Below the pieces are notes generated by a model. That model ran no database searches. It was not told the DNA's origin and saw only the letters and a list, made by a program, of their open reading frames with translations. Below, piece after piece: positions 3,431 to 30,517 of a stretch of 64,000 nt of DNA. The stretch comes from Afipia sp. GAS231. GTDB lineage: Bacteria; Pseudomonadota; Alphaproteobacteria; Rhizobiales; Xanthobacteraceae. The DNA is taken from positions 5,566,501 to 5,630,500 of the forward strand of contig NZ_LT629703.1 of assembly GCF_900103365.1 (NCBI RefSeq). Direction: 5' to 3'. Within the stretch, counting starts at the first letter, position 1; every line of letters begins with the position of its first letter. Position numbers and translations under genes: made by a program.

Positions 3431-3874
3431 ATGCCGTCGCGCCAGCGCCGATCTGCGGACAACAAATTGGCCAGATGGCGACTTACCAAGGCAACTCACG
3501 AAGAAAATCCAAGAAAAAATTCGAGCAATAAATCGTTCAAGACCAGCGAGACGGGCGGGCGGGTGTTTCAGTCGGTAAAGCGTCAGCGTGAATATCAGGG
3601 CTATCGTCCCAGCACACCGGAACCGGAAAGTTCCGGAAGCTCGATACCGATCCTGATTGGTGCGGCCATGATAGCGGCGGCCATCCTGCTGTCGACGCTG
3701 ATCAATGCGCTCGGCAGCCGCTATGTCGGCGTCGAAAGCCCCACCGAGGAGACCGCCTGGCTGGTCGATCGACTCACCGGCAGCGTCTATCGGTGCCAGG
3801 CGACGGAACGGGGTAAGGCCTCCTGCGACGCCACGGTCGCGACCGGCAGTATTGCGGAGCGGGCCAAGCATTGA
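3431..3874 (+). CDS. Small single-pass membrane protein of unknown function
   Basis: The 147-residue product has a basic, Ser/Lys/Arg-rich N-terminal half, one clear membrane segment (IPILIGAAMIAAAILLSTLI, roughly residues 75-95) and a C-terminal region with two cysteines (YRCQ and SCDAT). The start is uncertain: the frame also runs back into the terminator, and an internal GTG at 3562 is possible. I do not recognise the family. Its identity as a gene rests on the membrane segment and the hydrophilic flanks; the opposite strand also has an open frame here that lacks protein-like features. Confidence 0.5.
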   Translation: MPSRQRRSADNKLARWRLTKATHEENPRKNSSNKSFKTSETGGRVFQSVKRQREYQGYRPSTPEPESSGSSIPILIGAAMIAAAILLSTLINALGSRYVGVESPTEETAWLVDRLTGSVYRCQATERGKASCDATVATGSIAERAKH

Positions 3875-3955
3875 GGTGCAAGCATTGAGGTGAGGGGCAG
3901 GCGATGCCTGTTTCCCGACTTCTCACGCGCGCGAATCCGACTACATTGCGGCGCG

Positions 3956-5137: not shown

Positions 5138-5278
5138 GTATCCGCGCGCGTAGTTCTACGGAAAAGGCCAGCCCCTCACCAACGGCATGCCCGTGTTACG
5201 CCAGCGCGGGCATTCGCCGTTGCCAGATGCGAAAGCACTCGGTAATCCCTGAGGCACAAGAAACCTCGGGGGAAACCA

Positions 5279-6610: not shown

Positions 6611-6623
6611 CGACTCTCTATCC

Positions 6624-6649
6624 GTCGTTCCCGCGTTCGCGGGGACGAC
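6624..6649. repeat. Small palindrome after the MFS gene (half-element of a dispersed repeat)
   Basis: GTCGTTCCCGC (6624-6634) faces GCGGGGACGAC (6639-6649) with one mismatch and a 4-nt loop. The CCCGC-ttcg-GCGGG core matches the right-hand palindrome of the ~100-bp composite repeats at 30527, 32470 and 35560. Located 13 bp after the MFS stop, it could also slow transcription. Confidence 0.55.
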
Positions 6650-6729
6650 AGGGAGGGTGCGGGGGACGTCGATACAGGAAAAAGAGGGAACCACCCCTTA
6701 ACCCAATTCCTCATCACGAACACATGATC

Positions 6730-6755
6730 ACTGACGAATATTGACAATCGTCAGT
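6730..6755. promoter_or_regulatory. Perfect inverted repeat upstream of the RND efflux operon; candidate TetR operator
   Basis: ACTGACGA (6730-6737) and TCGTCAGT (6748-6755) are perfect complements around a 10-bp spacer. The spacer contains TTGACA at 6741-6746, which could serve as a -35 element, though no convincing -10 follows. It lies 43 bp before the efflux adaptor start, in an AT-rich stretch. The TetR-family gene at the end of the operon is the obvious candidate to bind it; this is inference. Confidence 0.5.
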
Positions 6756-6797
6756 TAGTATTCGACACTCTTCATCAGATCCGCGATGGAGAGTCCG

Positions 6798-7904
6798 ATG
6801 TTCGCCCGTTCGATTTTTTCTAGCTATTACAAGCTCTTGACCGGTGCAGCGCTGGCGCTGGCGGTAGTTGCGCTGACCGGCTGCAATGAAAAGGCGGCCG
6901 AGGTGGCGGCTCCCGGGCGTCCGGTTCTGGTCGCGACCGTGCATTACGAGGCGGAGACGCCCGAGCGCAGTTTCGTCGGCACCATCAAGCCCCGGATCGA
7001 GACCGACATGGGCTTTCGGGTCCCCGGCAAGGTCGCAAAGCGCCTGGTCGAGGTCGGCCAGACCGTCGATGTCGGCCAGCCGCTCGCCACCCTCGACGAG
7101 GTCGATCTGAAGCTGCAGGCCGAGCAGGCCGTGGCCGAATTCACCGCCGCCACCGGCGTGCTGGCGCAGGCCGGCGCCGCCGAACAGCGCGCCAAGGATC
7201 TGCGCGCCAAGGGCTGGACCACCGATGCGCAGATGGATACGAGCCGCGCCGCCGCCGATGAGGCCCGCGCGCGCCTCGACCGTGCCGAGCGCTCCGTCGA
7301 ACTGACGAAGAACTCGCTGTCGTATGCAACGCTGGTCGCCGATACCCGCGGCGTCGTCACCGCGACTCTCGTCGATCCCGGCCAGGTCGTAGGCTCCGGC
7401 CAGACCGCGATCCGCGTCGCGCGCTTTGCAGAAAAGGAAGCCGTGGTCGCAATTCCCGAAACGCTGGTCGGCCGCGCCAAGGATGGCACTGCCACTGTGA
7501 CGCTGTGGTCGGACGCAGACAAGAAATACGCGGCGAAGCTGCGCGAGGTCGCACCCTCGGCCGATCCGGCGACGCGGACTTTTCTCGCCAAATTCTCGCT
7601 GCCGGAAGCCGGCGACAAAGTCTCGCTCGGCATGACCGCGACGCTGACCCTTTCAGATCCCGCCACCGAACGCGTCGCAAGGCTGCCGCTGTCGGCGCTG
7701 TTCAGCCAGGGCAGCGAGCCCTCGCTCTACATCGTCGGCGATTCCGGCGAAGTGGTGCTGAAGCCGGTCACCGTGAAATCTTATGAAAGCAATTCCGTCG
7801 TCATCACCGGCGGCGTCCCTGAAGGCGCCAAGGTCGTGGCGCTCGGCGTGCAAAAGCTCGATCCGGCCCAGAAGGTCCGGGTTGTTTCGTCGCTGTCGTT
7901 CTAA
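6798..7904 (+). CDS. RND efflux periplasmic adaptor lipoprotein (membrane fusion protein)
   Basis: The ATG at 6798 is chosen over the one at 6786 because GGAGAG then lies 5-7 nt upstream. The 368-residue product has a lipoprotein signal ending in the lipobox LTGC with Cys at residue 29. It then shows the MFP/HlyD order: a barrel-sandwich half (IETDMGFRVPGKVAKRLVEVG), an Ala/Gln/Glu-rich coiled-coil hairpin at about 95-165, the second lipoyl half (SYATLVADTRGVVTATLVDPGQVV) and a beta-barrel region. It links the inner-membrane pump encoded next (24-nt gap) to an outer-membrane channel. No TolC-type gene lies in this window, so an unlinked channel is expected. Confidence 0.9.
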   Translation: MFARSIFSSYYKLLTGAALALAVVALTGCNEKAAEVAAPGRPVLVATVHYEAETPERSFVGTIKPRIETDMGFRVPGKVAKRLVEVGQTVDVGQPLATLDEVDLKLQAEQAVAEFTAATGVLAQAGAAEQRAKDLRAKGWTTDAQMDTSRAAADEARARLDRAERSVELTKNSLSYATLVADTRGVVTATLVDPGQVVGSGQTAIRVARFAEKEAVVAIPETLVGRAKDGTATVTLWSDADKKYAAKLREVAPSADPATRTFLAKFSLPEAGDKVSLGMTATLTLSDPATERVARLPLSALFSQGSEPSLYIVGDSGEVVLKPVTVKSYESNSVVITGGVPEGAKVVALGVQKLDPAQKVRVVSSLSF

Positions 7905-7928
7905 GCCTGCCTATCATTGGAGAGTGAC

Positions 7929-10900
7929 ATGAAGCGCTTCAATCTCTCGGGCTGGGCGGTCAGCCATCCGACCCTGATCCTGTTCCTGATGATCGCGCTG
8001 GGCGCAGCCGGCTTCGTCTCCTACCAGAAGCTCGGCCGCGCCGAGGATCCGTTCTTCACGGTCAAGGTGGTCAACGTCTCGGCGATCTGGCCCGGCGCCA
8101 CCGCCCAGGAAATGCAGACCCAGGTCGCCGATCCCATCGAGAAGAAGCTGCAGGAACTGCCGTTCTTCGAAAAGGTGCAGACCTATTCCAAGCCGGCCTT
8201 CACGGCGATGCAGGTCACCTTCAAGGATTCGACCCCGCCAAAGGACGTGCCTTATCTGTTTTACCTGCTGCGCAAGAAGCTGGCCGACGTGCAGGGCCAG
8301 CTGCCGGCGGGCCTGCTCGGCCCGGTCGTCAACGACGAGTTCTCCGACGTCGATTCGATCCTCTACATGATGACCGGCGACGGCGCTGATTATGCGCAGT
8401 TAAAGAAGACCGCCGAAGGCATGCGCCAGCGGTTGTTGAAGGTGCCCGGGGTCACCAAGGTCGATCTCTACGGCACCCAGGACGAGCGCATCTATGTCGA
8501 GTTCTCGCATGCCAAGCTGGCGACGCTCGGCATCACGCCGCAGGCGCTGTTCGATTCGCTCGCCAAGCAGAACAACGTAACCCCGGCCGGCACCGTCGAA
8601 ACCTCGTCGCAGCGCGTGCCGCTGCGCGTCACCGGTGCGCTCGACGGCGTTAAGGCCGTTGCGGAAACGCCGGTCGAAAGCAACGGCCGCGTGTTCCGTC
8701 TGGGCGACATCGCGACCGTCACGCATGGCTATGTCGATCCGCCGACTTTCATCGCCCGTCAGGAGGGCAAGCCCGCGCTCGGCATCGGCGTGGTCACCAC
8801 CCGCGGCGCCAACATCCTCGAACTCGGCAAGGACGTCGAGAAGGCGGTCGCGGAGTTCATGGCTGCGGTGCCGCAGGGCATTAATGTCGATCAGATCGCC
8901 GACCAGCCGAAGGTGGTCGAGCGCGCCGTCGGCGAGTTCGTGCACTCCTTCATCGAGGCGCTCGCGATCGTGCTGTTCGTCTCGTTTGTCGCGCTCGGAT
9001 GGCGCACCGGCATCGTGGTAGCGGCCTCGGTGCCGCTGGTGCTGGCGATAGTCTTCATCGTCATGAATGCGATGTCGCTCGATCTGCACCGCATCACGCT
9101 CGGCGCGCTGATCATCGCGCTCGGCCTCCTGGTCGACGATGCCATCATTGCCGTCGAAATGATGGTGGTGAAAATGGAACAGGGCTGGGACCGCGTGCGC
9201 GCGGCGTCCTTTGCCTGGGAATCAACTGCGTTTCCGATGCTCACGGGGACGCTGGTCACGGCCGCTGGCTTCCTCCCCATCGGCTTTGCCAATTCGGCGG
9301 TCGGCGAATACGCCGGCGGCATCTTCTGGATCGTGGCGATTGCGCTGGTCGCGTCCTGGTTCGTCGCCGTGATCTTCACGCCCTATATCGGCGTCAAGCT
9401 GTTGCCGAACATCACCGTCAGCCATAACCACGATCCGCACGCCGTCTACGAGACCCGAATGTATCGCGGGTTGCGCCGCGTGGTGCAGTGGTGCGTCGAT
9501 CACCGCGTCAAGGTGGTGGTGGCGACCGTCGGCGTGTTCGTGCTCTCGATCGTCGGCTTCGGTCATGTCCAGCAGCAGTTCTTCCCGCTGTCGGAACGGC
9601 CTGAGCTGTTCCTGCAACTGCGCCTGCCCGAAGGCACCGCCTTCAACGTCACGGAAAAGTCCGTGAAGAAGGCCGAGGCGTTGCTCAAGGACGACAAGGA
9701 TATCGCGACCTACACCTCCTATATCGGCCAGGGTTCGCCGCGCTTCTGGCTCGGCCTCAATCCGCAGCTGCCGAACGAAGCCTTTGCCGAGATCGTGATC
9801 GTCTCCAAGGACGTCGAGGCCCGCGAGCGGATCAAGGCGCGGCTCGAGAAGGCCGTCAATGAAGGCGAACTGACCGAGGCGCGGGTGCGCGTCGATCGCT
9901 TCAATTTCGGTCCGCCGGTCGGCTTCCCGGTCCAGTTCCGCGTGATCGGCCCCGATCCGAACACGGTGCGTGACATCGCCTACAAGGTGCGCGACGTGAT
10001 GCGGCAGAACGACAAGACCAAGGACGTTCAGCTCGACTGGAACGAGCAGTCGCCCTACCTGAAGCTGGTCGTGGATCAGGACCGCGCCCGCGCGCTCGGT
10101 CTCACCCCGCAGGACGTCTCGCAGGCGCTTGCGATGCTGATCTCGGGTGCGCCGGTCACCACCATTCGCGACGGCATCGAGAAGGTCGGCGTGATCGCGC
10201 GCGCGGTGCCGTCCGAACGGCTCGATCTCGGCCGCGTCGGTGACCTCACTGTGACGTCACGCAACGGCGTTGCGGTGCCGCTGCAACAGATCGCCAAAAT
10301 CGAATATGCCCATGAGGACCCGATCCTGTGGCGGCGCAACCGCGACATGGCGATCACCGTGCGCAGCGACGTCGTCGACGGCGTCCAGGCGCCCGACATC
10401 ACCAGCCAGATTTCGCCTAAATTGCAGGAAATCCGCGATCATCTCGAGCCGGCCTACCGGATCGAGGCGGGCGGCGCGTTCGAGGAATCCGCCAAGGGCA
10501 ACGCCTCGATCTTCGTGCTGTTTCCGCTGATGGTGCTGGTCATGCTGACGCTGCTGATGATCCAGTTGCAGAGCTTTTCGCGGCTGATCCTGGTGTTCCT
10601 GACCGCACCGCTCGGCATCGTCGGCGCTTCGCTCGGGCTCAATGTCGCCAACCAGCCGTTCGGCTTCGTGGCGCTGCTTGGCCTGATCGCGCTGGCCGGC
10701 ATGATCATGCGCAACGCGGTGATCCTGGTGGATCAGATCGAGTCCGACGTCGCCCAGGGCCTGACGCGCCGGGAAGCCATCGTCGAAGCCACCGTCCGAC
10801 GTGCCCGGCCGGTGGTGCTGACGGCGCTGGCCGCCATCCTGGCCATGATCCCGCTGTCGCGCTCGGCCTTCTGGGGCCCGATGGCGATCACCATCATGGG

Positions 10901-11084
10901 CGGATTGTTTGTTGCAACCTTCCTGACCTTGCTGTACCTGCCGGGCCTCTACGCGCTCTGGTTCCGCAAGAGCCTGGAAGAAAGCGGCGAAATCGAGCAG
11001 CCTGATCTTGCGCCGCAGCATCATCCGGCCAAGGATCTGGCGACGCCTCCGCTCGCATTTCCGCTTGCCGATGCCGCGGAATAA
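7929..11084 (+). CDS. RND multidrug/efflux pump, AcrB-like
   Basis: The 1051-residue protein has the size and repeat layout of AcrB-type pumps: one helix, a large periplasmic loop, helices 2-6, then the same again. The proton relay is seen as the Asp pair in GLLVDDAIIAVE (D403/D404, matching AcrB D407/D408). In the second half the position of AcrB K940 is Arg (GMIMRNAVILVDQ), a known variant among RND pumps. ATG 7929 has a GGAGAG ribosome site; an upstream in-frame TTG at 7917 is less likely. It works with the adaptor encoded just before. Substrates cannot be read from sequence. Confidence 0.93.
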   Translation: MKRFNLSGWAVSHPTLILFLMIALGAAGFVSYQKLGRAEDPFFTVKVVNVSAIWPGATAQEMQTQVADPIEKKLQELPFFEKVQTYSKPAFTAMQVTFKDSTPPKDVPYLFYLLRKKLADVQGQLPAGLLGPVVNDEFSDVDSILYMMTGDGADYAQLKKTAEGMRQRLLKVPGVTKVDLYGTQDERIYVEFSHAKLATLGITPQALFDSLAKQNNVTPAGTVETSSQRVPLRVTGALDGVKAVAETPVESNGRVFRLGDIATVTHGYVDPPTFIARQEGKPALGIGVVTTRGANILELGKDVEKAVAEFMAAVPQGINVDQIADQPKVVERAVGEFVHSFIEALAIVLFVSFVALGWRTGIVVAASVPLVLAIVFIVMNAMSLDLHRITLGALIIALGLLVDDAIIAVEMMVVKMEQGWDRVRAASFAWESTAFPMLTGTLVTAAGFLPIGFANSAVGEYAGGIFWIVAIALVASWFVAVIFTPYIGVKLLPNITVSHNHDPHAVYETRMYRGLRRVVQWCVDHRVKVVVATVGVFVLSIVGFGHVQQQFFPLSERPELFLQLRLPEGTAFNVTEKSVKKAEALLKDDKDIATYTSYIGQGSPRFWLGLNPQLPNEAFAEIVIVSKDVEARERIKARLEKAVNEGELTEARVRVDRFNFGPPVGFPVQFRVIGPDPNTVRDIAYKVRDVMRQNDKTKDVQLDWNEQSPYLKLVVDQDRARALGLTPQDVSQALAMLISGAPVTTIRDGIEKVGVIARAVPSERLDLGRVGDLTVTSRNGVAVPLQQIAKIEYAHEDPILWRRNRDMAITVRSDVVDGVQAPDITSQISPKLQEIRDHLEPAYRIEAGGAFEESAKGNASIFVLFPLMVLVMLTLLMIQLQSFSRLILVFLTAPLGIVGASLGLNVANQPFGFVALLGLIALAGMIMRNAVILVDQIESDVAQGLTRREAIVEATVRRARPVVLTALAAILAMIPLSRSAFWGPMAITIMGGLFVATFLTLLYLPGLYALWFRKSLEESGEIEQPDLAPQHHPAKDLATPPLAFPLADAAE

Positions 11085-11101
11085 TTGAAGATTGCTCTGA
11101 C

Positions 11102-11719
11102 ATGACGCTGACTTCGGAAATCATCGAAACCGACACCCGGGAACGGATTCTCGTGGTGGCGGAGCGTCTGTTCCGGGTGATCGGCTACCAGAAGACCACG
11201 GTGGCCGACATCGCCAAGGAACTGCGGATGAGCCCGGCCAACGTCTATCGCTTCTTCGACTCGAAGAAGGCGATCCACGAAGGCGTGGCGCGCGGCCTGA
11301 TGGGCGAGGTCGAGCAGGCCGCGCAGACCATCGCGTCCACCGGCGGCCCGGCGGCGAGCCGCCTGCGCGAACTGATGACCTCGATCCACCACATGAATGC
11401 GGAACGCTATGTCGGCAATTCCAAGCTGCATGAGATGGTCGAGATCGCGATGGAGGAAAGCTGGGACGTCTGCGTGGCCCATATGGAGCGGATCACCGGA
11501 ACTATCGGTAGCGTTATCGCCGAGGGCGCAGCCTCCGGAGAGTTCGAGGTTACCGACGTGCCGTTGGCGGCGCTTTGCACCTGCACGGCGATGATGCGGT
11601 TCTTCCACCCGCAAATGATCGCCCAGTGTGCCAACAAGCCGGGCCCGTCGATCGACGAAATGATCGACTTTGTGATCGCGGGATTGTCGCCGCATGCTAA
11701 AGGAGCGGTCCGGAATTGA
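11102..11719 (+). CDS. TetR-family transcriptional regulator
   Basis: The 205-residue product has the TetR N-terminal helix-turn-helix at residues 12-60 (RILVVAERLF, then TTVADIAKELRMSPANVYRF). A variable all-helical ligand and dimer domain follows. It lies 17 bp after the RND pump, so it is probably co-transcribed with it. Expressed last in the operon, it would form a feedback loop on the adaptor/pump genes, with the inverted repeat at 6730-6755 as the candidate target. Control of the efflux genes is inferred from position. Confidence 0.9.
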   Translation: MTLTSEIIETDTRERILVVAERLFRVIGYQKTTVADIAKELRMSPANVYRFFDSKKAIHEGVARGLMGEVEQAAQTIASTGGPAASRLRELMTSIHHMNAERYVGNSKLHEMVEIAMEESWDVCVAHMERITGTIGSVIAEGAASGEFEVTDVPLAALCTCTAMMRFFHPQMIAQCANKPGPSIDEMIDFVIAGLSPHAKGAVRN

Positions 11720-11738
11720 GCAACAAGGACCGCCAGCC

Positions 11739-12362
11739 GTGACCAGCCAAGACCTGCATTATTACGAACCCAAAAACGGCCACGGCCTCAAGCACGACCC
11801 CTTCAACGCCATCATCGCGCCGCGCCCGATCGGCTGGATTTCGTCGCGGGACGGCAAGGGCAACGTCAACTTGGCGCCCTACAGCTTCTTCAACGGCTTC
11901 TGTTACACGCCGCCGATCATCGGCTTTTCCTCGACGTCCTGGAAGGACACCGTCCAGAACGTCAAGGATACCGGCGAATTCATCTGGAATCTCGCCACCG
12001 TGGATCTGGCGAAACACATGAACGCCACGGCCGCCCATGTTGCCCCTGATGTCAGCGAGTTTCAGATCGCCGGATTGACGGCGGTGCCCGGCAAGCTCGT
12101 CAACGTGCCGCGGGTGGCTGAAAGCCCGGTCGCTTTCGAATGCAAGTTGACGGAGATCATCCAGTTGAAGGGCGCCAATGGCGAAAAGGCCAGCGCCTGG
12201 CTGACGCTGGGTGAAGTGGTTGCCGTCCACATCGACAAGGCCATGATCAAGGACGGCGTCTATATCACGGCACTGGCAAAGCCCATCGTGCGCGCCGGCC
12301 GCCGCGGCGATTATTTCACGGTCAAGCCGGAAGACATGTTCGAGATGATCCGGCCGGATTGA
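11739..12362 (+). CDS. Flavin reductase family (FMN-binding split barrel) protein
   Basis: The 207-residue product from GTG 11739 is preceded by AAGGA with 9-nt spacing; a longer frame from ATG 11694 overlaps the tetR end and lacks a ribosome site. It has the flavin reductase-like split-barrel pattern: the FMN-contact segment AIIAPRPIGWISSRDGKG, NLAPYSFFNGFCYTPPIIGF, and DTGEFIWNLA. Relatives bind FMN and act as NAD(P)H:flavin reductases or FMN-dependent enzymes. Being next to an efflux operon gives no firm clue to the substrate. It converges on the next gene with no intergenic bases. Confidence 0.85.
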   Translation: MTSQDLHYYEPKNGHGLKHDPFNAIIAPRPIGWISSRDGKGNVNLAPYSFFNGFCYTPPIIGFSSTSWKDTVQNVKDTGEFIWNLATVDLAKHMNATAAHVAPDVSEFQIAGLTAVPGKLVNVPRVAESPVAFECKLTEIIQLKGANGEKASAWLTLGEVVAVHIDKAMIKDGVYITALAKPIVRAGRRGDYFTVKPEDMFEMIRPD

Positions 12363-13685
12363 TCACTTTTCCTTGCCGCCGTCTTTGCTGTTTTCTTGGC
12401 TGAACGCGTCATAAACCAGCTTCTTGAACGCGGGCGTGATGCGTGCGCGTTCGTTCTGGGTCTGCTCCAGCAGGATATAGATCATGTCGAGGTTCGGATC
12501 GACGCCGAAATAAGTGCCGCTGCCGCTGTCCCATTTGAGTTCGCCGATTGAGCCCGGCGGCGGCGGTCGGGCATTGCCGGGATCGGTGCGCACGGCGAGG
12601 CCATAACCGTAGCCAAAGCCATCGCCTGGAAAATAGTAATAGTCCCGCGCGACACCGGAACCGGCTCCGACATGGTCTGATGTCATCGTCTTGAAAGCCG
12701 CCGGGCCAAGATATCGTTTTCCGTCAAGCTGGCCGCCGTTGAGCAGCATCTGGGCAAAGCGAGCGTAGTCGGTCAGGGAGGATACCAGCCCGCCACCGCC
12801 GGATTCCCATTCCGGATGGGCGCGGCGTTCGGTCTCGGCGTCTTTCAGGACGGTATCATCAGGCAACGGCTCCGCCATTCGCGCGCGTTCGCCGGCGTTG
12901 TCGAGCACGAACTTGGTGCTGGTCATGCCAAGCGGATCGAAGATGTGCTGCTTTTCGAACTGGTACAGCGTCTGTCCGGATACGATCTCGATGATGCGGC
13001 CGATGACGTCGGTCGAATGGCCGTAGCGCCAGAGCGTCCCGGGCTGCCGCGCCAACGGCAATTTTGCAATGCGATCGGCAAACGTCTTGTTGTCGTAACG
13101 CCCGTTGAAAAGCCCGGCTTCGGAATAGGCCTTCATGATCAGCTTGCCGCCGATATACTCGTAGGTGATGCCCGACGTTTGGCGCAGCAAGTCCGCGATC
13201 GTGATCGGCCGGTCCGGTGGAACGAGTTTCAGTGCAGCCGCTCCATCTGCCGCGACCCCGACCTTCACATCGGCAAACGCCGGGATGAATTTCGAGGCCG
13301 GATCCGACAGCGACATCTTGCCGGCGTCGATCAACATCATTGCCGCCAGACTGGTGATCGGCTTGGTCATCGAATGCAGCGCAAAGATCGTATCCGGCGT
13401 CATCGGCGCCTTGGTGGCGACGTCCTGAACGCCGAAGCACTTCAGGTAGACCGGCTTGCCATGCTGCTGGATCAACACGACGGCGCCGGGCAATTTCCCC
13501 GAGGCAATTTCGTTGTCGAAGAATTCGGTGATGCGATCGAGCTTGTCCGGCGACGGGGCAGGCGTGTCGGCCGCACGGCTTGTCGAGGCGGCGCACCAGA
13601 TCGCGACCGAGATCGCCGCAACCGCAATCGATCGGGCGCAGGACGCACGGGATCCGAAGATCGCAGGATGAGCCGACATCGCCAT
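12363..13685 (-). CDS. Secreted serine hydrolase, beta-lactamase class C / EstB family
   Basis: The 440-residue product has an N-terminal signal region (about residues 15-39). It belongs to the serine beta-lactamase-like superfamily, with the nucleophile motif SMTK at 105-108 and the second motif in RYGHSTDVIG (Y221). The latter is the pattern of family VIII esterases and other non-lactamase members, where the strict YxN is not kept. An esterase or D-amino peptidase role is therefore more likely than true beta-lactam hydrolysis. The last codon abuts the flavin reductase stop on the other strand. Confidence 0.85.
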   Translation of the reverse strand: MAMSAHPAIFGSRASCARSIAVAAISVAIWCAASTSRAADTPAPSPDKLDRITEFFDNEIASGKLPGAVVLIQQHGKPVYLKCFGVQDVATKAPMTPDTIFALHSMTKPITSLAAMMLIDAGKMSLSDPASKFIPAFADVKVGVAADGAAALKLVPPDRPITIADLLRQTSGITYEYIGGKLIMKAYSEAGLFNGRYDNKTFADRIAKLPLARQPGTLWRYGHSTDVIGRIIEIVSGQTLYQFEKQHIFDPLGMTSTKFVLDNAGERARMAEPLPDDTVLKDAETERRAHPEWESGGGGLVSSLTDYARFAQMLLNGGQLDGKRYLGPAAFKTMTSDHVGAGSGVARDYYYFPGDGFGYGYGLAVRTDPGNARPPPPGSIGELKWDSGSGTYFGVDPNLDMIYILLEQTQNERARITPAFKKLVYDAFSQENSKDGGKEK

Positions 13686-14027
13686 GAGGTCTTCGCTTCA
13701 AAGCAATCGATCTGGACAGCGTGAGCATTACCATAGCAATGCCCTGACCCGGTTCAGCATTTCGTAGAGTTGTCCGATCGCTCAGCGAGAGGGACCGGCC
13801 GCGGGGGCGGATTTCCGTCGGCCAGGAAACATGTCCATCCCGCCCAAGCGACGGAAAATGCAGCCATTTCGGAACCGAAACGGGCTACCGCCGTTATCGG
13901 TTGGTTCATCAATTTCGCTTCATTCCCGCCGCGAAGTGCCCCCGAATCCTGCGCCATCAGCTAGGATGAACCGTCGTTTGGCTTAAGGTGCGGCGCCAGC
14001 CGCGCCGCCAACCATGAGGTGATCGCC
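13686..14027. other. Divergent intergenic region, no gene recognised
   Basis: This 342-bp gap separates the divergent serine hydrolase gene and the beta-oxidation operon, so it must hold promoters for both. I see short open frames on both strands, but none has a ribosome site, signal peptide or protein-like composition. No clear regulator palindrome was found; a FadR- or PsrA-type site would be expected here but cannot be recognised by eye. Confidence 0.5.
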
Positions 14028-21879: not shown

Positions 21880-22707
21880 ATGGCCGGATTGTCCAACCGC
21901 CAGACCGAAATCCTCAATATCGCCCGCGCCTCCGGCCGCGTGATCGTGGAGGATCTGGCGCGGCGTTTCGAGGTGTCGGCGCAGACCATCCGCAAGGATC
22001 TCAACGACCTCTGCGATCAGCGTTCGCTGACGCGGATCCATGGCGGCGCCATCATCGCCTCCGGCGTCGAAAACCTCGCTTATGAGGCGCGACGCTTTGT
22101 CGCCGCCGAGGAGAAGCGGGCGATCGGGATCGCCGCGGCGTCGCGGATTCCGAACGGCTGCTCGCTGTTCATCAACATCGGCACCACGACCGAAGAAGTC
22201 GCGAGCGCGCTGACCTCGCATGAGGACCTGCTCGTCATCACCAACAACCTAAATGTCGCGATGCTGCTGTACCGGCACCCGCGCATCGAGGTCATCGTGG
22301 CCGGCGGCGCGGTGCGCCGCGCCGATGGTGCGGTGATTGGTTCCACCGCGATCAGTCTCATTGGCCAGTTCAAGGTCGATTACGCCATCATCGGTGCTTC
22401 GGCGATCGACGAGGAGGGCGCGCTCTTGGACTTCGACTATCGCGAGGTGCAGGCGGCGCAAGCCATCATCGCCAACGCGCGCAGCGTCATGCTGGTGGCG
22501 GACTCGACAAAACTTCGCCGAAGCGCGCCGGTTCGCATCGCCCATATCAGCCAGATCCAGACCTTCGTCACCGACGCCGCGCTACCCGCCGGCCTCGCCA
22601 ACATCTGCCACAGCAGAGGCATCGAGGTGGTCGAGGCGATGGACAAGCCCGCCGCCGATATCGATGACCAGGCGGCGGAGCCGTCGACGGTGGTGCGGCT
22701 GAAGTAG
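21880..22707 (+). CDS. glpR: DeoR/GlpR-family repressor of the glycerol locus
   Basis: The 275-residue product has the DeoR N-terminal winged helix (residues 5-60; RRFEVSAQTIRKDLNDL then LTRIHGGA) and the sugar-phosphate isomerase-like sensor fold (INIGTTTEEVA, VITNNLNVA, DYAIIGASAID). GlpR repressors respond to glycerol 3-phosphate. Being 194 bp upstream of glpD and the transporter genes on the same strand strongly suggests it controls them. Candidate operators are the CTTTCG half-sites at 22812-22858. Its C-terminal tail beyond residue 255 is longer than usual and polar. Confidence 0.87.
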   Translation: MAGLSNRQTEILNIARASGRVIVEDLARRFEVSAQTIRKDLNDLCDQRSLTRIHGGAIIASGVENLAYEARRFVAAEEKRAIGIAAASRIPNGCSLFINIGTTTEEVASALTSHEDLLVITNNLNVAMLLYRHPRIEVIVAGGAVRRADGAVIGSTAISLIGQFKVDYAIIGASAIDEEGALLDFDYREVQAAQAIIANARSVMLVADSTKLRRSAPVRIAHISQIQTFVTDAALPAGLANICHSRGIEVVEAMDKPAADIDDQAAEPSTVVRLK

Positions 22708-22901: not shown

Positions 22902-24446
22902 TTGGACAGGGTATTCGACCTCGCCATCATTGGAGGCGGCATTAACGGCTGCGGCATCGCGCGCGATGCGGCGGGCCGGGGTAATTCTGTTTTCCTATGT
23001 GAAATGAATGACTTGGCTAGCGGGACGTCGTCCTGGTCGACCAAGCTGGTACATGGCGGTCTGCGCTATCTCGAATATTACGAGTTCCGGCTGGTCCGCG
23101 AGGCGCTGATCGAGCGCGAAATCCTCTGGCAGATCGCGCCGCATATCATTCGCCCGCTGCGTTTCGTTTTGCCGCACCATTCCGGATTGCGACCGGCCTG
23201 GCTGCTCAGGCTGGGGTTGTTTCTGTACGATCACATCGGCGGCCGGCATTTGCTCCCGCCGACCCGCTCGGTCGATCTCGCCCATGACGAGGTGGGAAAA
23301 CCCTTGATCGCCAACCGTTACACCAAGGGCTTTGAATATTCCGATTGCTTCGTCGACGACGCGCGCCTGGTCGTGCTCACCGCGCGCGATGCGGCGGATC
23401 GCGGCGCCGAAATTCACACCCGCACCCGCGCGGTCGAGATCCGGCAGGCCGACGGCATCTGGCAGGTCACCGTCGAGAACACCATCAGCGGTGCGCGCAC
23501 CACCATCAACGCCCGCGCACTGGTCAATGCCGGCGGTCCCTGGGTCGAGCAGGTGCTGTCGTCCGGCTCCGGCGTCAACGCGCGCGCCAAAGTACGGCTG
23601 GTGCAGGGCTCCCACATCGTGGTGCGCAAGCTCTATGAGCACGACCGCGCCTACATGTTCCAGAACGCCGATGGCCGCATCATCTTCGTCATTCCCTACC
23701 AGGACGATTTCACGCTGATCGGAACCACCGATCGCGATTACGACGGCGATCCTTCGAAGGTGAAGGCGTCGAACGAGGAGATCCAGTATCTCTGCGCCTC
23801 CGCCAGCGAATATCTGAAAAATCCGGTCACGCCGGAAGACGTGGTCTGGACCTATTCCGGTGTCCGCCCGCTGTATGACGATGGCGCCAGCGAAGCCAAG
23901 GCCGCGACCCGCGATTACGTGTTCGAACTCGATACGCCGGGCGGTGCGCCGCTGCTGTCGATCTATGGCGGCAAGATCACGACCTATCGGCGTCTGGCCG
24001 AAGAGGCATTGGAACGGCTCGCGCCGTACCTGCGTAGCGCCAAGGCCAAGGAAGGCTGGACCGGCAAGCAACCGCTGCCCGGCGGCGACATGGATGTCTC
24101 GGCGATTGCGGCGCTGACTGCGGAACTGGTGCGGAAATATTCGTTTCTCCCGTCCGCCCATGCCAACCGGATGGCGCACGCCTATGGCACCCGCGCCGCC
24201 AAGGTTTTAGGCAGTGCGAAATCGATGGCCGATCTCGGCCAGTCATTCGGCGCCAGCTTGACGGAAAGCGAAGTCAGGTACCTGATGTCGGCGGAATGGG
24301 CCTGTACCGCCGAAGACGTGGTGTGGCGCCGGTCCAAGCTCGGCTTGCGGCTGTCATCCGACCAAATCGCCGCGCTCGATGCATGGATCGCCGCCAACCG
24401 CGCCGCCGGCGAACGTCCCCTACGTGAAGCGGGAGGACGGACATGA
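22902..24446 (+). CDS. glpD: Glycerol-3-phosphate dehydrogenase, FAD-dependent
   Basis: The TTG at 22902 is chosen because GGGGAAG lies 6 nt upstream and the protein then begins LDRVFDLAIIGGGINGCG, like known GlpD starts; GTG 22872 is an alternative without a ribosome site. The 514-residue enzyme has the FAD Rossmann motif GGGINGCG, GTSSWSTKLVHGGLRYLE and the C-terminal GlpD cap domain. It oxidises glycerol 3-phosphate to dihydroxyacetone phosphate and feeds electrons to quinone at the inner membrane. An ATGA overlap couples it to glpS. Confidence 0.93.
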   Translation: MDRVFDLAIIGGGINGCGIARDAAGRGNSVFLCEMNDLASGTSSWSTKLVHGGLRYLEYYEFRLVREALIEREILWQIAPHIIRPLRFVLPHHSGLRPAWLLRLGLFLYDHIGGRHLLPPTRSVDLAHDEVGKPLIANRYTKGFEYSDCFVDDARLVVLTARDAADRGAEIHTRTRAVEIRQADGIWQVTVENTISGARTTINARALVNAGGPWVEQVLSSGSGVNARAKVRLVQGSHIVVRKLYEHDRAYMFQNADGRIIFVIPYQDDFTLIGTTDRDYDGDPSKVKASNEEIQYLCASASEYLKNPVTPEDVVWTYSGVRPLYDDGASEAKAATRDYVFELDTPGGAPLLSIYGGKITTYRRLAEEALERLAPYLRSAKAKEGWTGKQPLPGGDMDVSAIAALTAELVRKYSFLPSAHANRMAHAYGTRAAKVLGSAKSMADLGQSFGASLTESEVRYLMSAEWACTAEDVVWRRSKLGLRLSSDQIAALDAWIAANRAAGERPLREAGGRT

Positions 24447-25525
24447 GCGTCACGCTCGAACATGTCACGCGCACCGTGGATGGCATCCCGACCATTCGCG
24501 ATGTCTCGCTGACGCTCGACCGCGGTACGCTGAGCGTGCTGCTCGGGCCGACGCTGTCGGGCAAGACCTCGATCATGCGGCTGCTCGCCGGTCTCGACAA
24601 GCCATCCGCAGGCCGCGTGCTGGTCGATGGCAAGGACGTGACCGGCGCCGACGTGCGGCAACGCTCGGTCGCGATGGTCTACCAGCAATTCATCAATTAT
24701 CCCTCGCTGACGGTCTACGAGAACATCGCCTCGCCCTTGCGCGTGCAGGGCAAGCCGCGCGGCGAGATCGAAAAGCGGGTGCAGGAGGCGGCCAGCCTGT
24801 TGCGGCTCGAGCCGTATCTGCAGCGCACGCCGCTGCAACTGTCCGGCGGCCAGCAGCAGCGCACCGCGATCGCCCGCGCGCTGGTCAAGGGCGCCGATCT
24901 GGTGCTGCTCGACGAGCCGCTCGCCAATCTTGATTACAAGCTGCGCGAGGAGTTGCGCACCGAACTGCCGCGCATCTTCGAGGCGTCGGGCGCGATCTTC
25001 GTCTATGCGACCACCGAGCCCTCCGAAGCGCTGCTGCTCGGCGGCGACACGCTCTGCATGTGGGAAGGCCAGGTGCTGCAGGCCGGCAATACCTCAAAAG
25101 TCTATCGCCAGCCCGACACGCTGCGGGTGGCGCAGGTGTTTTCCGATCCGCCGCTCAACCTCGTCGGCATCGAGAAGAAAAGCGGTTCGGTCCAATACGC
25201 CGGCGGCATCCAGGCGCCTGCTAGCGGACTCTACGCGTCGCTGGCCGATGGACCCTATCGCGTCGGCTTCCGCGCGCATCAGTTGGAAGTGGCGAACGGC
25301 ATTGCCGGCCGTCATGCGTTCCAGGCAACCGTCACCGTGACCGAGATTACCGGTTCGGAAAGTTTTGTGCATCTCAACCGCGATGCGTCGAACTGGGTGG
25401 CAGTGCTGCAGGGCGTCCATGAATACGAACCCGGCCACGTGCTCGATGCCGTGCTCGATCCCGACAATGTTTTTGTGTTCGACGCCGCCGACCGGCTGGT
25501 CGCGGCACCCAGCAAAGCAATTTGA
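24443..25525 (+). CDS. glpS: Glycerol ABC transporter ATPase GlpS (H-loop His missing)
   Basis: The 360-residue protein has a Walker A at 35-42 (GPTLSGKT), Q-loop Gln81, intact signature LSGGQQQR at 133-140, Walker B with D157/E158, D-loop NLD and a C-terminal TOBE-like domain of MalK-type importers. The H-loop is altered: where other ATPases read YVTHDQTEAL it reads YATTEPSEAL, putting Thr191 in place of the switch histidine. Paired with GlpT, which has the histidine but lacks the signature, this gives one proper and one dead ATP site. It belongs to the glpSTPQV glycerol uptake system known from Rhizobium leguminosarum. Confidence 0.88.
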   Translation: MSVTLEHVTRTVDGIPTIRDVSLTLDRGTLSVLLGPTLSGKTSIMRLLAGLDKPSAGRVLVDGKDVTGADVRQRSVAMVYQQFINYPSLTVYENIASPLRVQGKPRGEIEKRVQEAASLLRLEPYLQRTPLQLSGGQQQRTAIARALVKGADLVLLDEPLANLDYKLREELRTELPRIFEASGAIFVYATTEPSEALLLGGDTLCMWEGQVLQAGNTSKVYRQPDTLRVAQVFSDPPLNLVGIEKKSGSVQYAGGIQAPASGLYASLADGPYRVGFRAHQLEVANGIAGRHAFQATVTVTEITGSESFVHLNRDASNWVAVLQGVHEYEPGHVLDAVLDPDNVFVFDAADRLVAAPSKAI

Positions 25526-25537
25526 GGGAGATGCATC

Positions 25538-26623
25538 ATGGCCCGCATTGACCTCGTCGATCTCGCGCATTCCTACGGCGGCAACGATGCGCCGCCCGAA
25601 TCATTTGCGCTGAAGCCGGTGACCATGACCTGGCGGCAGGGCGGCGCCTATGCGCTGCTTGGGCCGTCCGGCTGCGGCAAGACCACGCTGCTCAACCTGA
25701 TTTCCGGTATCGTGACGCCGTCGCGCGGGCAGATCCTGTTCGACGGCGCCGATATCACACCGCTGTCAACCCAGAAGCGCAATATCGCGCAAGTGTTCCA
25801 GTTTCCGGTGATCTACGACACCATGACGGTCGGCCAAAACCTGGCATTCCCCCTCAAGAACCGCGGCGTGCCGAAGGCCGATATCGACGCGCGCGTCAAA
25901 CGGATTGCCGACCTGCTCGACCTCACGCCCTATCTCAACCGCAAGGCCACCCGGCTGACGGCGGACGCCAAGCAGAAGATTTCGCTCGGCCGCGGTCTGG
26001 TCCGCTCCGACGTCGCCGCGATCCTGTTCGACGAGCCGCTGACGGTGATCGATCCCGAACTGAAATGGCAGCTGCGTTCGAAACTCAAGGCACTGCACCG
26101 CGATCTCGACCTCACGATGATCTACGTCACCCACGACCAGACCGAGGCGCTGACCTTTGCCGATACCGTGGTCGTGATGCACGATGGCGGGGTGGTGCAG
26201 AGCGGCACGCCGGCCGAACTGTTCGACAAGCCTGCGCATACCTTTGTCGGTTATTTCATCGGCTCGCCCGGCATGAACATCGTGCCGGCCACGGTGAGCG
26301 GCCACGAGGCGCGGATCGACGGCCATACCATCGGCCTCCATCGCAATTACGGCGTGCTGCCGGCGGGGGCGAAGATCGAGATCGGCGTGCGGCCGGAATT
26401 CGTCAATGTCGCGGCTCCCGCTTCGGGGCTGTTGTCGGCCAATATCGAACGCATCGACGACCTCGGCCGCGTCCGCTTCGCCCGCGTTCGTGTCGGCGAC
26501 GCCAAATTCGCCGCGCGCGTACCGCCGGGGTTCTCCGTTCCCGACAGCACCGTTGGGCTGGTGTTCGATCCCTCACATGTTCACGTCTATGCCGACAGCC
26601 GCCTGGTCGAGGGGGTTGCCTGA
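25538..26623 (+). CDS. glpT: Glycerol ABC transporter ATPase GlpT (signature motif degenerate)
   Basis: The 361-residue protein has Walker A GPSGCGKTT (42-50), Q-loop Gln88, Walker B ILFDE with D165/E166 and an intact H-loop YVTHDQTEAL (His199), plus a C-terminal TOBE-like domain. Where the ABC signature LSGGQ should stand it reads LTADAKQKISLGRG (140-153), so two glycines are lost. The D-loop reads VID, not NLD. GAGGGAG lies upstream of the ATG. It is not the E. coli GlpT antiporter, only the rhizobial name. The next gene overlaps its stop by 1 bp. Confidence 0.88.
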   Translation: MARIDLVDLAHSYGGNDAPPESFALKPVTMTWRQGGAYALLGPSGCGKTTLLNLISGIVTPSRGQILFDGADITPLSTQKRNIAQVFQFPVIYDTMTVGQNLAFPLKNRGVPKADIDARVKRIADLLDLTPYLNRKATRLTADAKQKISLGRGLVRSDVAAILFDEPLTVIDPELKWQLRSKLKALHRDLDLTMIYVTHDQTEALTFADTVVVMHDGGVVQSGTPAELFDKPAHTFVGYFIGSPGMNIVPATVSGHEARIDGHTIGLHRNYGVLPAGAKIEIGVRPEFVNVAAPASGLLSANIERIDDLGRVRFARVRVGDAKFAARVPPGFSVPDSTVGLVFDPSHVHVYADSRLVEGVA

Positions 26624-27525
26624 TGGACAAGACGGTCAACCAGAAAGCCTGGTTCCTGGTGCTGCCGGTGTTCCTGGTGGTCGCGTTCTCCGCGATCCTG
26701 CCGCTGATGACGGTGGTGAACTATTCGATGCAGGATACCTTCGGCAACAACCAGTTCTTCTGGAACGGTGTCGGCTGGTTCAAGGAGCTGCTCGATCCCT
26801 CGACCGATCTCGGCGGACGCTTTCTTGCGTCGCTCGGCCGCAACCTGTTCTTCTCCGCCGTGATTCTCGCGATCGAGGTGCCACTCGGCATCCTGGTGGC
26901 GCTGTCGATGCCGCGCGAGGGTTGGACGGTGGCTGCCTGTCTCGTGATCCTGGCGTTGCCGCTCTTGATTCCGTGGAACGTGGTCGGGACGATCTGGCAG
27001 ATTTTCGGCCGGCCCGACATCGGACTGCTCGGCTATACGCTCAACAGTCTCGGCATGAATTATAACTACGTCTCCAACGAATTCGACGCCTGGGCGACCG
27101 TCATCGTGATGGATGTCTGGCACTGGACGTCGCTGGTTGCGCTGCTGTGCTACGCCGGCCTGAAGTCGATCCCCGACGCCTATTACCAGGCGGCGCAGAT
27201 CGACGGCGCCTCGCGCTGGGCGGTATTCACCGCAATCCAGTTGCCAAAGATGAACCGTGTGCTGCTGATTGCGGTGCTGCTGCGCTTCATGGACAGTTTT
27301 ATGATCTACACCGAACCGTTCGTCGTGACGGGCGGCGGACCGGGCAACTCGACCACGTTCGTCTCGATCGAGCTGGTCAAGATCGCGCTCGGGCAGTTCG
27401 ACCTCGGCAAGGCGGCGGCGCTGTCGCTGGTCTACAACCTGATCATCCTGATCGTGTGCTGGGTGTTCTACACCGTCATGACCAACGCCGGCGCCGATCG
27501 CCCGGCCAAACAGGGAGTCGCATGA
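26623..27525 (+). CDS. glpP: Glycerol ABC transporter permease GlpP
   Basis: The 300-residue protein starts at ATG 26623, overlapping the glpT stop (TGATG). It has six predicted membrane helices and the cytoplasmic EAA loop of importer permeases (YYQAAQIDGASRWAVFTAIQ), which contacts the ATPase. N-terminal helix IPL-type sequence is VLPVFLVVAFSAILPLMTVV. It matches the MalF/UgpA side of sugar-importer permeases. It ends with an ATGA overlap with glpQ, so the two permeases are made in equal amounts. Confidence 0.9.
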   Translation: MDKTVNQKAWFLVLPVFLVVAFSAILPLMTVVNYSMQDTFGNNQFFWNGVGWFKELLDPSTDLGGRFLASLGRNLFFSAVILAIEVPLGILVALSMPREGWTVAACLVILALPLLIPWNVVGTIWQIFGRPDIGLLGYTLNSLGMNYNYVSNEFDAWATVIVMDVWHWTSLVALLCYAGLKSIPDAYYQAAQIDGASRWAVFTAIQLPKMNRVLLIAVLLRFMDSFMIYTEPFVVTGGGPGNSTTFVSIELVKIALGQFDLGKAAALSLVYNLIILIVCWVFYTVMTNAGADRPAKQGVA

Positions 27526-28331
27526 TGCATTCGATTCCCGGCCGTCGCATCATCATGGTGCTGTTCCTGATCTTCCTGCTGTTGCCGATCTACTGGCTCG
27601 TCAACATGAGCTTCAAGACCAATGGCGAGATCGTCTCGACCATGACGCTGTGGCCGCACCAGCCGACGCTGGCAAACTACATCCGCATCTTCACCGACGA
27701 GAGCTGGTATTCCGGCTATATCCATTCGCTGAATTACGTCGTGATCAACACCGTGATCTCGATTTCGGTGGCGTTGCCGGCTGCTTACGCGTTTTCGCGC
27801 TACCGCTTCCTCGGCGACAAGCATCTGTTCTTCTGGCTGCTGTCGAACCGGATGGCGCCAGCGGCGGTCTATGCGCTGCCGTTCTTCAATCTCTATTCGG
27901 CGATCGGGCTGTTCGATACGCCGTGGGCCGTGGCGCTGGCGCACTGCATCTTCAATGTGCCGCTGGCGGTGTGGATCCTCGAAGGCTTCGTTTCCGGCGT
28001 GCCGCGCGAGATCGACGAGACCGCGTTCCTCGACGGCTATTCGTTCCCGCGCTTCTTCGTCAAGATCCTGGTGCCGCTGATCGGCAGCGGCATCGGCGTC
28101 GCGGCATTCTTCTGCTTCATGTTTTCCTGGGTCGAACTGCTGCTGGCGCGCACGCTGACGACGGTGGCCGCCAAGCCGATCTCGGCGATCATGACGCGCA
28201 CGGTTTCGGCCGCCGGCATGGACTGGGGTTTGCTGGCCGCGGCCGGCGTGCTCACCATCATCCCGGGCGCGCTGGTGATCTGGTTCGTTCGCAACTACAT
28301 CGCGCGCGGTTTCGCGCTGGGCAGGGTGTAG
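27522..28331 (+). CDS. glpQ: Glycerol ABC transporter permease GlpQ
   Basis: The 269-residue protein (MMHSIPGRRIIMVLFLIFLL) has six membrane helices, the size and order of MalG/UgpE-type permeases. The EAA-type loop is seen at ETAFLDGYSFPRFFVKILVP. GGAG precedes its ATGATG start. It pairs with GlpP to form the membrane channel. In this locus the name GlpQ means a permease, not the E. coli glycerophosphodiesterase. Confidence 0.9.
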   Translation: MMHSIPGRRIIMVLFLIFLLLPIYWLVNMSFKTNGEIVSTMTLWPHQPTLANYIRIFTDESWYSGYIHSLNYVVINTVISISVALPAAYAFSRYRFLGDKHLFFWLLSNRMAPAAVYALPFFNLYSAIGLFDTPWAVALAHCIFNVPLAVWILEGFVSGVPREIDETAFLDGYSFPRFFVKILVPLIGSGIGVAAFFCFMFSWVELLLARTLTTVAAKPISAIMTRTVSAAGMDWGLLAAAGVLTIIPGALVIWFVRNYIARGFALGRV

Positions 28332-28333
28332 CC

Positions 28334-28660
28334 ATGGAAAACATCGCATGGATGGCGTGGACGGTGCCGACCGCGATCTTCTTCGTGATGCTGTCGCTCA
28401 CCCTGGGCGTGATGACATGGCTTGCGGTCGCTTATCCGGAGGCCGAGCGGATCGGCATCCTGCGGATTCCGACCACGCGCGGCGACCGCCTGTTCATTTC
28501 GCTGGTGCTATCAGCCGTGATCCATCTGTTGTGGATCGCTTTCGTCGGTACCGATGCGATCGCCACGCTTCCAATCGGGGAGGGCGTTGAGATTTCGAGC
28601 CTGTGGCTCGCAACCGTAATTTCGCTGCTGTCTGCCGTTGCGATTTTCCGCAACGTCTGA
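28334..28660 (+). CDS. DUF2160 small membrane protein of the glycerol transporter locus
   Basis: The ATG at 28334 comes 2 bp after the glpQ stop. The 108-residue product has three hydrophobic segments (TAIFFVMLSLTLGVMTWLAV, LFISLVLSAVIHLLWIAFVG and LWLATVISLLSAVAIF) and little else. It matches what I recall as DUF2160, a family found between the permease and binding-protein genes of this transporter type. Its conserved place and tight spacing suggest an accessory subunit of the GlpSTPQV complex, but no function is established from the sequence. Confidence 0.8.
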   Translation: MENIAWMAWTVPTAIFFVMLSLTLGVMTWLAVAYPEAERIGILRIPTTRGDRLFISLVLSAVIHLLWIAFVGTDAIATLPIGEGVEISSLWLATVISLLSAVAIFRNV

Positions 28661-28732
28661 GAGAGGCGAAAAATGAGCAGATCCGGGACCAACCCGGGCC
28701 TGGTTTTTGATTCTGCAACCGGAGGAACCAAA

Positions 28733-30517
28733 ATGCGACACTTGAGAGGAAAGACCAAGGATCGTCTTCTGACGATGACCAGCGCCGCTGCGCTGATCGC
28801 GGCATCGGTCACGATGGCCGCGCCCGCATTGGCGGACGAAGCTGCTGCCAAGAAGTGGATCGATTCTGAATTTCAGCCGTCGACGTTGTCCAAGGACGAC
28901 CAGATGAAGGAAATGCAGTGGTTCATCAAGGCCGCTGCGCCGTTCAAGGGCATGGAGATCAACGTCACTTCCGAAACCCTGACCGTGCACGAGTATGAAT
29001 CGAAGACGCTTGCAAAGGCCTTCGAGGAAATCACCGGCATCAAGGTCAAGCACGACATCATCCAGGAAGGTGACGTCGTCGAGAAAATCCAGACCCAGAT
29101 GCAGTCGGGCAAGAATGTCTATGACGGCTGGATCAACGACTCCGACTTCATCGGAACGCACTTCCGCTACGGTCAGGCCGTCGACTTGACGGACTGGATG
29201 GCCAAGGAAGGCAAGGACGTCACCGATCCGATGCTCGACGTCAACGACTTCATCGGCAAGTCCTTCACCACCGCGCCGGACGGACATCTCTATCAGTTGC
29301 CCGACCAGCAGTTCGCGAACCTCTATTGGTTCCGCTACGACTGGTTCTCCAATCCGGAGTACAAGGCGAAGTTCAAGGCCAAGTACGGCTACGACCTTGG
29401 CGTCCCCGTGAACTGGTCGGCGTATGAAGATATCGCCGAGTTCTTCACCAACGACATCAAGGAAATCAACGGCGTCCGCGTCTATGGCCACATGGACTAC
29501 GGCAAGAAGGATCCGTCACTGGGCTGGCGCTTCACCGACGCGTGGTTGTCGATGGCCGGCAACGGCGACAAGGGCATCCCGAACGGACTCCCCGTCGACG
29601 AATGGGGCATCCGGATGGAAGGCTGTCGTCCGGTCGGCTCGTCCGTCGAGCGTGGCGGCGACGTCAACGGACCGGCGTCGGTCTATTCGATCGTCAAGTA
29701 TCTCGACTGGATGAAGAAGTATGCCCCGCCGCAGGCGCAAGGCATGACCTTCTCCGAGTCGGGACCGGTTCCGTCGCAGGGCGCGATTGCCCAGCAGGTG
29801 TTCTGGTACACCGCCTTCACCGCCGACATGGTGAAGCCCGGTCTGCCGGTCATGAACGCCGATGGCACGCCGAAGTGGCGCATGGCTCCGTCGCCGCACG
29901 GCTCGTACTGGAAGGAAGGCATGAAGCTGGGTTATCAGGACGTGGGTTCTGCGACCTTGCTGAAGTCGACCCCGGTTGATCGCCGCAAGGCAGCCTGGCT
30001 CTACCTGCAGTTCATCGTGTCCAAGTCGGTGTCACTGAAGAAGAGCCATGTCGGTCTCACTTTCATCCGTGAATCCGATATCTGGGACAAGTCGTTCACG
30101 GAGCGTGCTCCGAAGCTCGGCGGTCTGATCGAGTTCTACCGCTCGCCCGCGCGCGTGCAGTGGACCCCGACCGGCAACAACGTGCCTGATTATCCGAAGC
30201 TTGCGCAATTGTGGTGGCAGAACATCGGCGATGCGTCGTCCGGTGCGAAGACGCCGCAGGCCGCGATGGACTCGCTCGCAGCCGCGCAGGACTCGGTGAT
30301 GGAACGTCTCGAGAAATCCGGCGTGCAGAAGGAGTGCGGACCGAAGCTCAACAAGAAGGAAACGGCTGAGTACTGGTTCGCGAAGTCGGCCAAGGACGGC
30401 AATATCGCGCCCCAGCGCAAGCTGGCCAACGAGAAGCCCAAGGGCGAAACCATCGACTACGACACGCTGATCAAGTCGTGGCCGGCATCGCCGCCGAAGC
30501 GCGCCGAAGCGAAGTAA
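28733..30517 (+). CDS. glpV: Glycerol ABC transporter substrate-binding protein GlpV
   Basis: ATG 28733 has a strong GGAGG ribosome site; an upstream ATG at 28673 adds 20 residues without signal character. The 594-residue protein has a signal peptide (about residues 1-34, ending APALA) and is longer than most sugar-binding proteins (400-450). It has features of the extracellular solute-binding fold such as EYESKTLAKAFEEITGIKVK and DGWINDSDFIG. It captures glycerol in the periplasm and delivers it to GlpPQ. It is the last gene of the operon; a composite repeat and terminator follow. Confidence 0.88.
   Translation: MRHLRGKTKDRLLTMTSAAALIAASVTMAAPALADEAAAKKWIDSEFQPSTLSKDDQMKEMQWFIKAAAPFKGMEINVTSETLTVHEYESKTLAKAFEEITGIKVKHDIIQEGDVVEKIQTQMQSGKNVYDGWINDSDFIGTHFRYGQAVDLTDWMAKEGKDVTDPMLDVNDFIGKSFTTAPDGHLYQLPDQQFANLYWFRYDWFSNPEYKAKFKAKYGYDLGVPVNWSAYEDIAEFFTNDIKEINGVRVYGHMDYGKKDPSLGWRFTDAWLSMAGNGDKGIPNGLPVDEWGIRMEGCRPVGSSVERGGDVNGPASVYSIVKYLDWMKKYAPPQAQGMTFSESGPVPSQGAIAQQVFWYTAFTADMVKPGLPVMNADGTPKWRMAPSPHGSYWKEGMKLGYQDVGSATLLKSTPVDRRKAAWLYLQFIVSKSVSLKKSHVGLTFIRESDIWDKSFTERAPKLGGLIEFYRSPARVQWTPTGNNVPDYPKLAQLWWQNIGDASSGAKTPQAAMDSLAAAQDSVMERLEKSGVQKECGPKLNKKETAEYWFAKSAKDGNIAPQRKLANEKPKGETIDYDTLIKSWPASPPKRAEAK

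Follow-up and report, generated by a model that had tools for sequence, protein, structure and literature searches.

One composite ATP site carries the departures from consensus in the GlpS/GlpT ATPase pair of a putative glycerol importer from Afipia sp. GAS231

The ATP-binding cassette (ABC) ATPases of MalK/UgpC-type CUT1 importers are usually homodimers with two consensus ATP sites. In the stretch of Afipia sp. GAS231 DNA analysed here (64,000 nucleotides of contig NZ_LT629703.1, positions 5,566,501 to 5,630,500; hereafter the window), two different MalK-type ATPases of a putative glycerol importer are encoded side by side: GlpS (360 aa, 24443..25525) and GlpT (361 aa, 25538..26623). All coordinates are given as window positions, and all features described lie on the + strand. 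The two proteins depart from the consensus in different motifs, and the question raised by this locus is whether these departures fall on one ATP site or on two, and whether they are maintained or reflect decay. A preliminary description of the window had proposed that both fall on the same site, that the other site is complete, and that the pairing suggests co-evolution, not decay.

Motif positions were mapped by HMMER alignment to solved MalK-type chains (2d62 and 1g29 for GlpT, 1v43 for GlpS). GlpS was found to possess an intact LSGGQ signature (residues 133-137; 24839..24853) together with a threonine, Thr191 (codon acc, 25013..25015), at the position of the switch histidine in its H-loop, which reads Y188-A-T-T191-E-P. 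GlpT possesses the histidine, His199 (26132..26134), in an H-loop reading Y196-V-T-H199-D-Q, and carries LTADA (residues 140-144; 25955..25969) in the place of LSGGQ. One composite site is described as the Walker A and B motifs and the A-, Q- and H-loops of one subunit together with the signature of its partner (PMC7756269). One such head-to-tail site is formed by the core of GlpS with the signature of GlpT, and both losses therefore fall on it. Several further changes on this same side had been overlooked in the preliminary description. In GlpS these are Val12 at the A-loop position (24476..24478) and the Walker A motif GPTLSGKT (24545..24568), in which the fourth-position glycine is replaced; in GlpT they are the D-loop TVID (26042..26053), where control ATPases mostly read xNLD or xALD, and the position of the arginine that follows the signature in LSGGQxQR. 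The departures from the MalK-type pattern at these six positions all belong to one site. The second site is composed of the GlpT Walker A motif GPSGCGKT (25661..25684), Tyr13 of the GlpT A-loop and His199, facing the GlpS signature and the GlpS D-loop NLD, which lies in one segment with Walker B and the catalytic Glu158 (24899..24934).

We then assessed whether this arrangement is particular to the window. Orthologous loci were fetched through the neighbouring solute-binding protein GlpV, and the ATPase motifs played no role in their selection. A phylum sample of 398 genomes, 94 of which matched at E<=0.001, contributed 88 places, taken from the strong matches, and a further 80 places were the best 80 of 590 from named genomes. 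An adjacent GlpS/GlpT pair was present in 163 of these 168 places, giving 164 loci with the window; the five excluded places were one at a contig edge (L143) and four orphan places (L087-L090), whose GlpV-like binding proteins are 54-61% identical and have no ATPase pair in the fetched stretch. The 164 loci comprise 161 distinct pairs, as some genomes were sampled twice, and form 32 clusters at 70% identity with a minimum pairwise identity of 45%. One truncated GlpS (L152) reduces the count to 163 in some columns. Among the 76 loci shown with taxonomy, 70 are from Alphaproteobacteria, one from an unclassed member of Pseudomonadota, four from Desulfobulbia and one from a genome labelled Myxococcota; the remaining 88 were shown without taxonomy. 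Searches of a large protein database with the two ATPases gave 8000 matches, of which the 120 listed were all near relatives; these were not used for any count.

The degenerate pattern and the complete second site were found together in 164 of 164 loci. The H-loop histidine of GlpS is absent from every locus, replaced by Thr in 157, Ser in six and Ala in one, and LSGGQ is absent from every GlpT, which instead follows the pattern L-[TSGA]-[AP]-D-x; Asp143 is found in 163 of 164. The accompanying changes are similarly widespread: in GlpS, Val occupies the A-loop position in 151/163 and Leu the fourth position of Walker A in 144/163, while in GlpT the arginine position is Lys in 161/164 and Thr in 3/164, Ile171 of the D-loop is present in 164/164, and TAID is read in 1/164. 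On the consensus side, the GlpS signature is LSGGQ, the GlpS D-loop NLD is kept, and the GlpT A-loop tyrosine and H-loop histidine are present in all 164 loci; the single deviation at its catalytic positions is a Q-loop Glu in one locus (L136). The least altered cores were encountered in five loci (L074-L078), where GlpS has the Walker A glycine and Ser191, yet the histidine and LSGGQ are still lacking. It was noted separately that the glp cluster is rearranged in L062 and L073-L078, where the gene for the binding protein lies upstream of both ATPase genes.

Neither change was seen without the other, and no intermediate with one subunit intact was found among the 164 loci. A search for GlpS in 200 genomes (E<=1e-62; 10 candidates scored per genome) likewise recovered no new places: 35 were found in 35 genomes, all scoring at least 324.5 bits and all within the window or the fetched stretches. 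The motif assignments of the preliminary description, its placement of both defects on one site, and its expectation that the two changes would co-occur among orthologs are thus borne out. That the pattern reflects a sequencing error, a frameshift or a misalignment has next to no likelihood, as it is refuted by the independent genomes, the open reading frames and the low ratio of nonsynonymous to synonymous substitution (dN/dS) described below.

As controls, we read thirty further ABC ATPase frames from this genome, found in the loci of the 30 best among 150 listed matches. The H-loop histidine and the Walker A glycine were present in 30/30 of these and an SGG signature in 28/30. In AlphaFold2 single-chain models of the two subunits (pLDDT 90.2 for GlpS and 89.7 for GlpT), the helix following the signature lies in the same register, starting from residue 135 in GlpS and 142 in GlpT.

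Selection on the pair was then considered. Against six close relatives, dN/dS was 0.061-0.116 for GlpS and 0.068-0.111 for GlpT, and the altered residues themselves are conserved through synonymous turnover, with T191 encoded by four synonymous codons and D143 by two. Together, the low dN/dS and the conservation of the altered residues indicate that the degenerate motifs are maintained rather than decaying, in agreement with the preliminary description. Decay specific to Bradyrhizobium, the genus of most of the best named matches among those listed, was ruled out, as the same state is seen in loci whose identity to the window ranges from 48 to 97%. A functionless ratchet represents a different possibility, in which an obligate heterodimer arose after duplication, one site was free to erode in the family's ancestor, and adaptation of the interface alone has since kept the residues in place. 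In the tree, GlpS and GlpT each form a single clade (support 100/100) with a long stem (approximately 1.4-1.7 changes per column), and the altered state is common to every sampled descendant, as would be expected of one ancestral event. However, the altered positions are conserved down to 45% pairwise identity, and Lys41, Gln81 and Glu158 of GlpS survive, where free erosion would be expected to remove them too. We therefore regard this ratchet as unlikely, though it is the strongest of the alternatives.

The composite-site argument presumes that GlpS pairs with GlpT. Promiscuous MalK-type ATPases do exist, among them MsmX, which has been called multitask (PMC8603345), and homodimers, or exchange with other ATPases of this type, would void the argument. 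In each of the 164 loci, however, a single GlpS gene is accompanied by a single GlpT gene on its strand, the GlpT start lying -76 to +170 bases from the GlpS stop. A GlpT homodimer would moreover lack a signature and a GlpS homodimer would lack the switch histidine, and we consider this alternative very improbable. By sequence, the pair fits the heterodimeric type with one degenerate site, having the signature of one subunit and the catalytic side of its partner altered on the same site in every locus; it does not belong with the fused two-domain ATPases of the RbsA/NupO type, as the two genes are separate throughout.

The asymmetry is supported directly by the motifs and their homology-based mapping, by their presence in every locus examined and by purifying selection on both genes. 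We think it fairly likely that the two proteins work as an obligate heterodimer with one hydrolytic site and one degenerate, ATP-holding site. In this mechanism, the heterodimer would sit beneath the GlpP/GlpQ permease, and the complete site (A-loop, Walker A/B and H-loop of GlpT with the signature and D-loop of GlpS) would hydrolyse ATP. The opposite site, formed by the same elements of GlpS with the LTADA motif and D-loop of GlpT, would be without the switch histidine, the adenine-stacking aromatic residue and two signature glycines, and Asp143 would be placed where the signature meets the gamma-phosphate. With Lys41, Gln81 and Glu158 kept, this degenerate site would most likely bind MgATP with little or no turnover and act as a hinge, and a single hydrolysis at the consensus site would drive each import cycle. 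The pump probably runs on one working engine, an arrangement more familiar among exporters and CFTR than among nutrient importers. This one-hydrolytic-site reading follows from homology to asymmetric exporters: for heterodimeric exporters with one degenerate site, a single hydrolysis has been suggested to be enough to reset the pump (PMC7756565), and making the degenerate site of Pdr5 canonical is reported to have abolished activity (PMC7756269).

Several observations weigh against this mechanism. Among the 60 best of more than 550 PDB sequences per subunit there were only homologues, and no structure or biochemistry of the GlpST complex was found. Glu158 is kept in GlpS, which leaves room for residual hydrolysis, in contrast to degenerate exporter sites, where the catalytic glutamate is described as often altered (PMC7756269, PMC7544095). 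The Walker A glycine is found in 6/163 GlpS sequences and an aromatic A-loop residue in 1/163, and these two elements are accordingly not strict. The word dead, used for this site in the preliminary description, goes beyond the sequence evidence: GlpS retains the Walker A Lys41, the Q-loop Gln81, Asp157 and the catalytic Glu158, which makes degenerate the safer word. These retained residues (Lys41 and Gln81 in 163/163; Asp157-Glu158 in 164/164) would also fit a slower but real second hydrolysis, in which Glu158 works together with Thr191 so that both sites turn over. Against it, the switch histidine of GlpS and the signature of its partner are both lost, and the aromatic residue of the A-loop is missing from nearly all loci as well; we rate a second hydrolysis as a somewhat poorer prospect than the ratchet.

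The permeases were examined for a similar trend. GlpP (26623..27525) and GlpQ (27522..28331) are present in all 164 loci. The glutamate of the EAA loop is retained by GlpQ in 164/164; in GlpP it is found in none, being replaced by Gln in 162 loci, including the window (Gln189, 27187-27189), and by His in two. Control permeases of related importers have the glutamate in 30/32, and both exceptions are in a single locus (L262). The permease coupling loop is likewise asymmetric, a feature that had also been overlooked. A more speculative extension, which we hold to be possible but less likely than not, is an economised importer of four different core subunits that would spend one ATP per glycerol, with the degenerate site serving as a lasting ATP hinge and a single permease coupling through its full EAA glutamate. 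If true, the lower price would make active import of a cheap, diffusible C3 substrate worthwhile, and the importer would stand as a natural one-engine match to the maltose importer with its two engines.

The locus lies in a 7.58 Mb genome on a single contig. Upstream of the ATPases are a glpR-like DeoR regulator (21880..22707; best match NF008154 at 249 bits, under its cut-off of 331) and the glycerol-3-phosphate dehydrogenase gene glpD (22905..24446; NF008899 above cut-off), which overlaps glpS by 4 bases. A 463-aa database protein (P0210) was noted to join PF16901, which we take to be the C-terminal domain of GlpD, to the GlpS ATPase domain, possibly through a frameshift across this overlap. 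Downstream of the permeases are glpU, encoding a small DUF2160 membrane protein (28334..28660; PF09928), and glpV (28673..30517; SBP_bac_1), the bait used for the orthologous loci. Two ATPases, two permeases, a DUF2160 protein and a binding protein clustered with glpR and glpD identify the set as GlpSTPQUV, and from the glpD/glpR context glycerol is its presumed substrate. The open reading frames and translations of both ATPases match PF00005, and both were assigned to the MalK-type CUT1 ATPases by their C-terminal MalK OB/TOBE regulatory domain. GlpT matches OB_MalK and TOBE_2 (PF17912 and PF08402) above cut-off; GlpS scores 20.2 for TOBE_2, slightly under the cut-off of 21, and aligns over its full length to MalK-type chains. 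Neither is a UgpC by NF008653 (GlpS 248.9 and GlpT 283.5 bits against a cut-off of 432). The sole glycerol kinase match over its family cut-off is at G000:C1:2856089-2857558, approximately 2.7 Mb from the glp operon.

The GlpSTPQUV glycerol importer of R. leguminosarum VF39, for which the founding paper is said to be Ding et al. 2012, likewise comprises six importer genes beside glpR and glpD. In that species, glpD and glpK are described as flanking the six genes, whereas the importer in the window has no adjoining glpK, and a close counterpart is noted in C. metallidurans (PMC7912956). The importer genes of VF39 are reported to be necessary for glycerol utilisation (PMC7912956, PMC11962113), and expression of glpS, glpT and adjoining glp genes is described as rising strongly on glycerol in a Ralstonia strain (PMC11223650). 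No report of the GlpS/GlpT asymmetry was found in searches of open-licence PMC papers, which did not extend to Ding et al. 2012, and this is not proof of absence. The reason for keeping degenerate ATP sites has been debated chiefly for exporters and CFTR. A maltose-type importer with this asymmetry in all relatives examined would allow the matter to be addressed by simple assays of growth and uptake, MalFGK2 serving as the two-site control.

Other importers with two different ATPases offer a comparison. The same genome contains a second importer with two adjacent MalK-like genes (L230; G000:C1:5490000-5506000, importer at approximately 3564-13786), here called dihydroxyacetone (DHA)-linked after DHA-kinase-like neighbours named by eye from their translations. 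Importers of this type have the histidine in both subunits in 15 of 15 genomes, and one subunit, the first ATPase in L230, has a signature ending in Asp (LAGGD in 11, LSGGD in three, LSSGD in one). Since this importer keeps both histidines, with a milder one-sided signature change, two different ATPases alone do not bring the paired loss. A shared origin of GlpT and the LAGGD-type subunit from an asymmetric two-ATPase ancestor is not claimed: the grouping received 96/90 in a first tree, and the link was gone in a second tree from which the motif columns were removed, with 12 rows dropped and nine added and with the deeper links lost. One further two-ATPase importer (L250; G071:C1:4163000-4179000) was noted to have the signatures LSGGD and LSGGE and both histidines.

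Of two heterodimeric importers considered, functional motifs have been described for DppD and DppF (PMC12136057), and IrtAB is reported to bind nucleotide asymmetrically and is contrasted by its authors with a degenerate-site exporter (PMC10246721). The statement of the preliminary description that importers usually have two consensus sites needs qualification, as the fused importer ATPases RbsA and NupO of B. subtilis have already been judged from sequence to have one degenerate site (PMC11466899). These differ from GlpS/GlpT in being single polypeptides of type II importers, with a second Walker A that lacks the lysine kept by GlpS (PMC11466899). The MalK/UgpC-type CUT1 ATPases resemble GlpS and GlpT in overall sequence, regulatory domain and consensus-site motifs. 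Heterodimeric ABC exporters and CFTR with one degenerate site have, like GlpS/GlpT, one complete site and one in which the signature of one subunit and the core of its partner are altered (PMC7756269). These are a different transporter class, whose degenerate sites often have an altered Walker B glutamate, a residue that GlpS keeps. A two-gene MalK-type importer with one degenerate site looks to be a new setting for a known principle.

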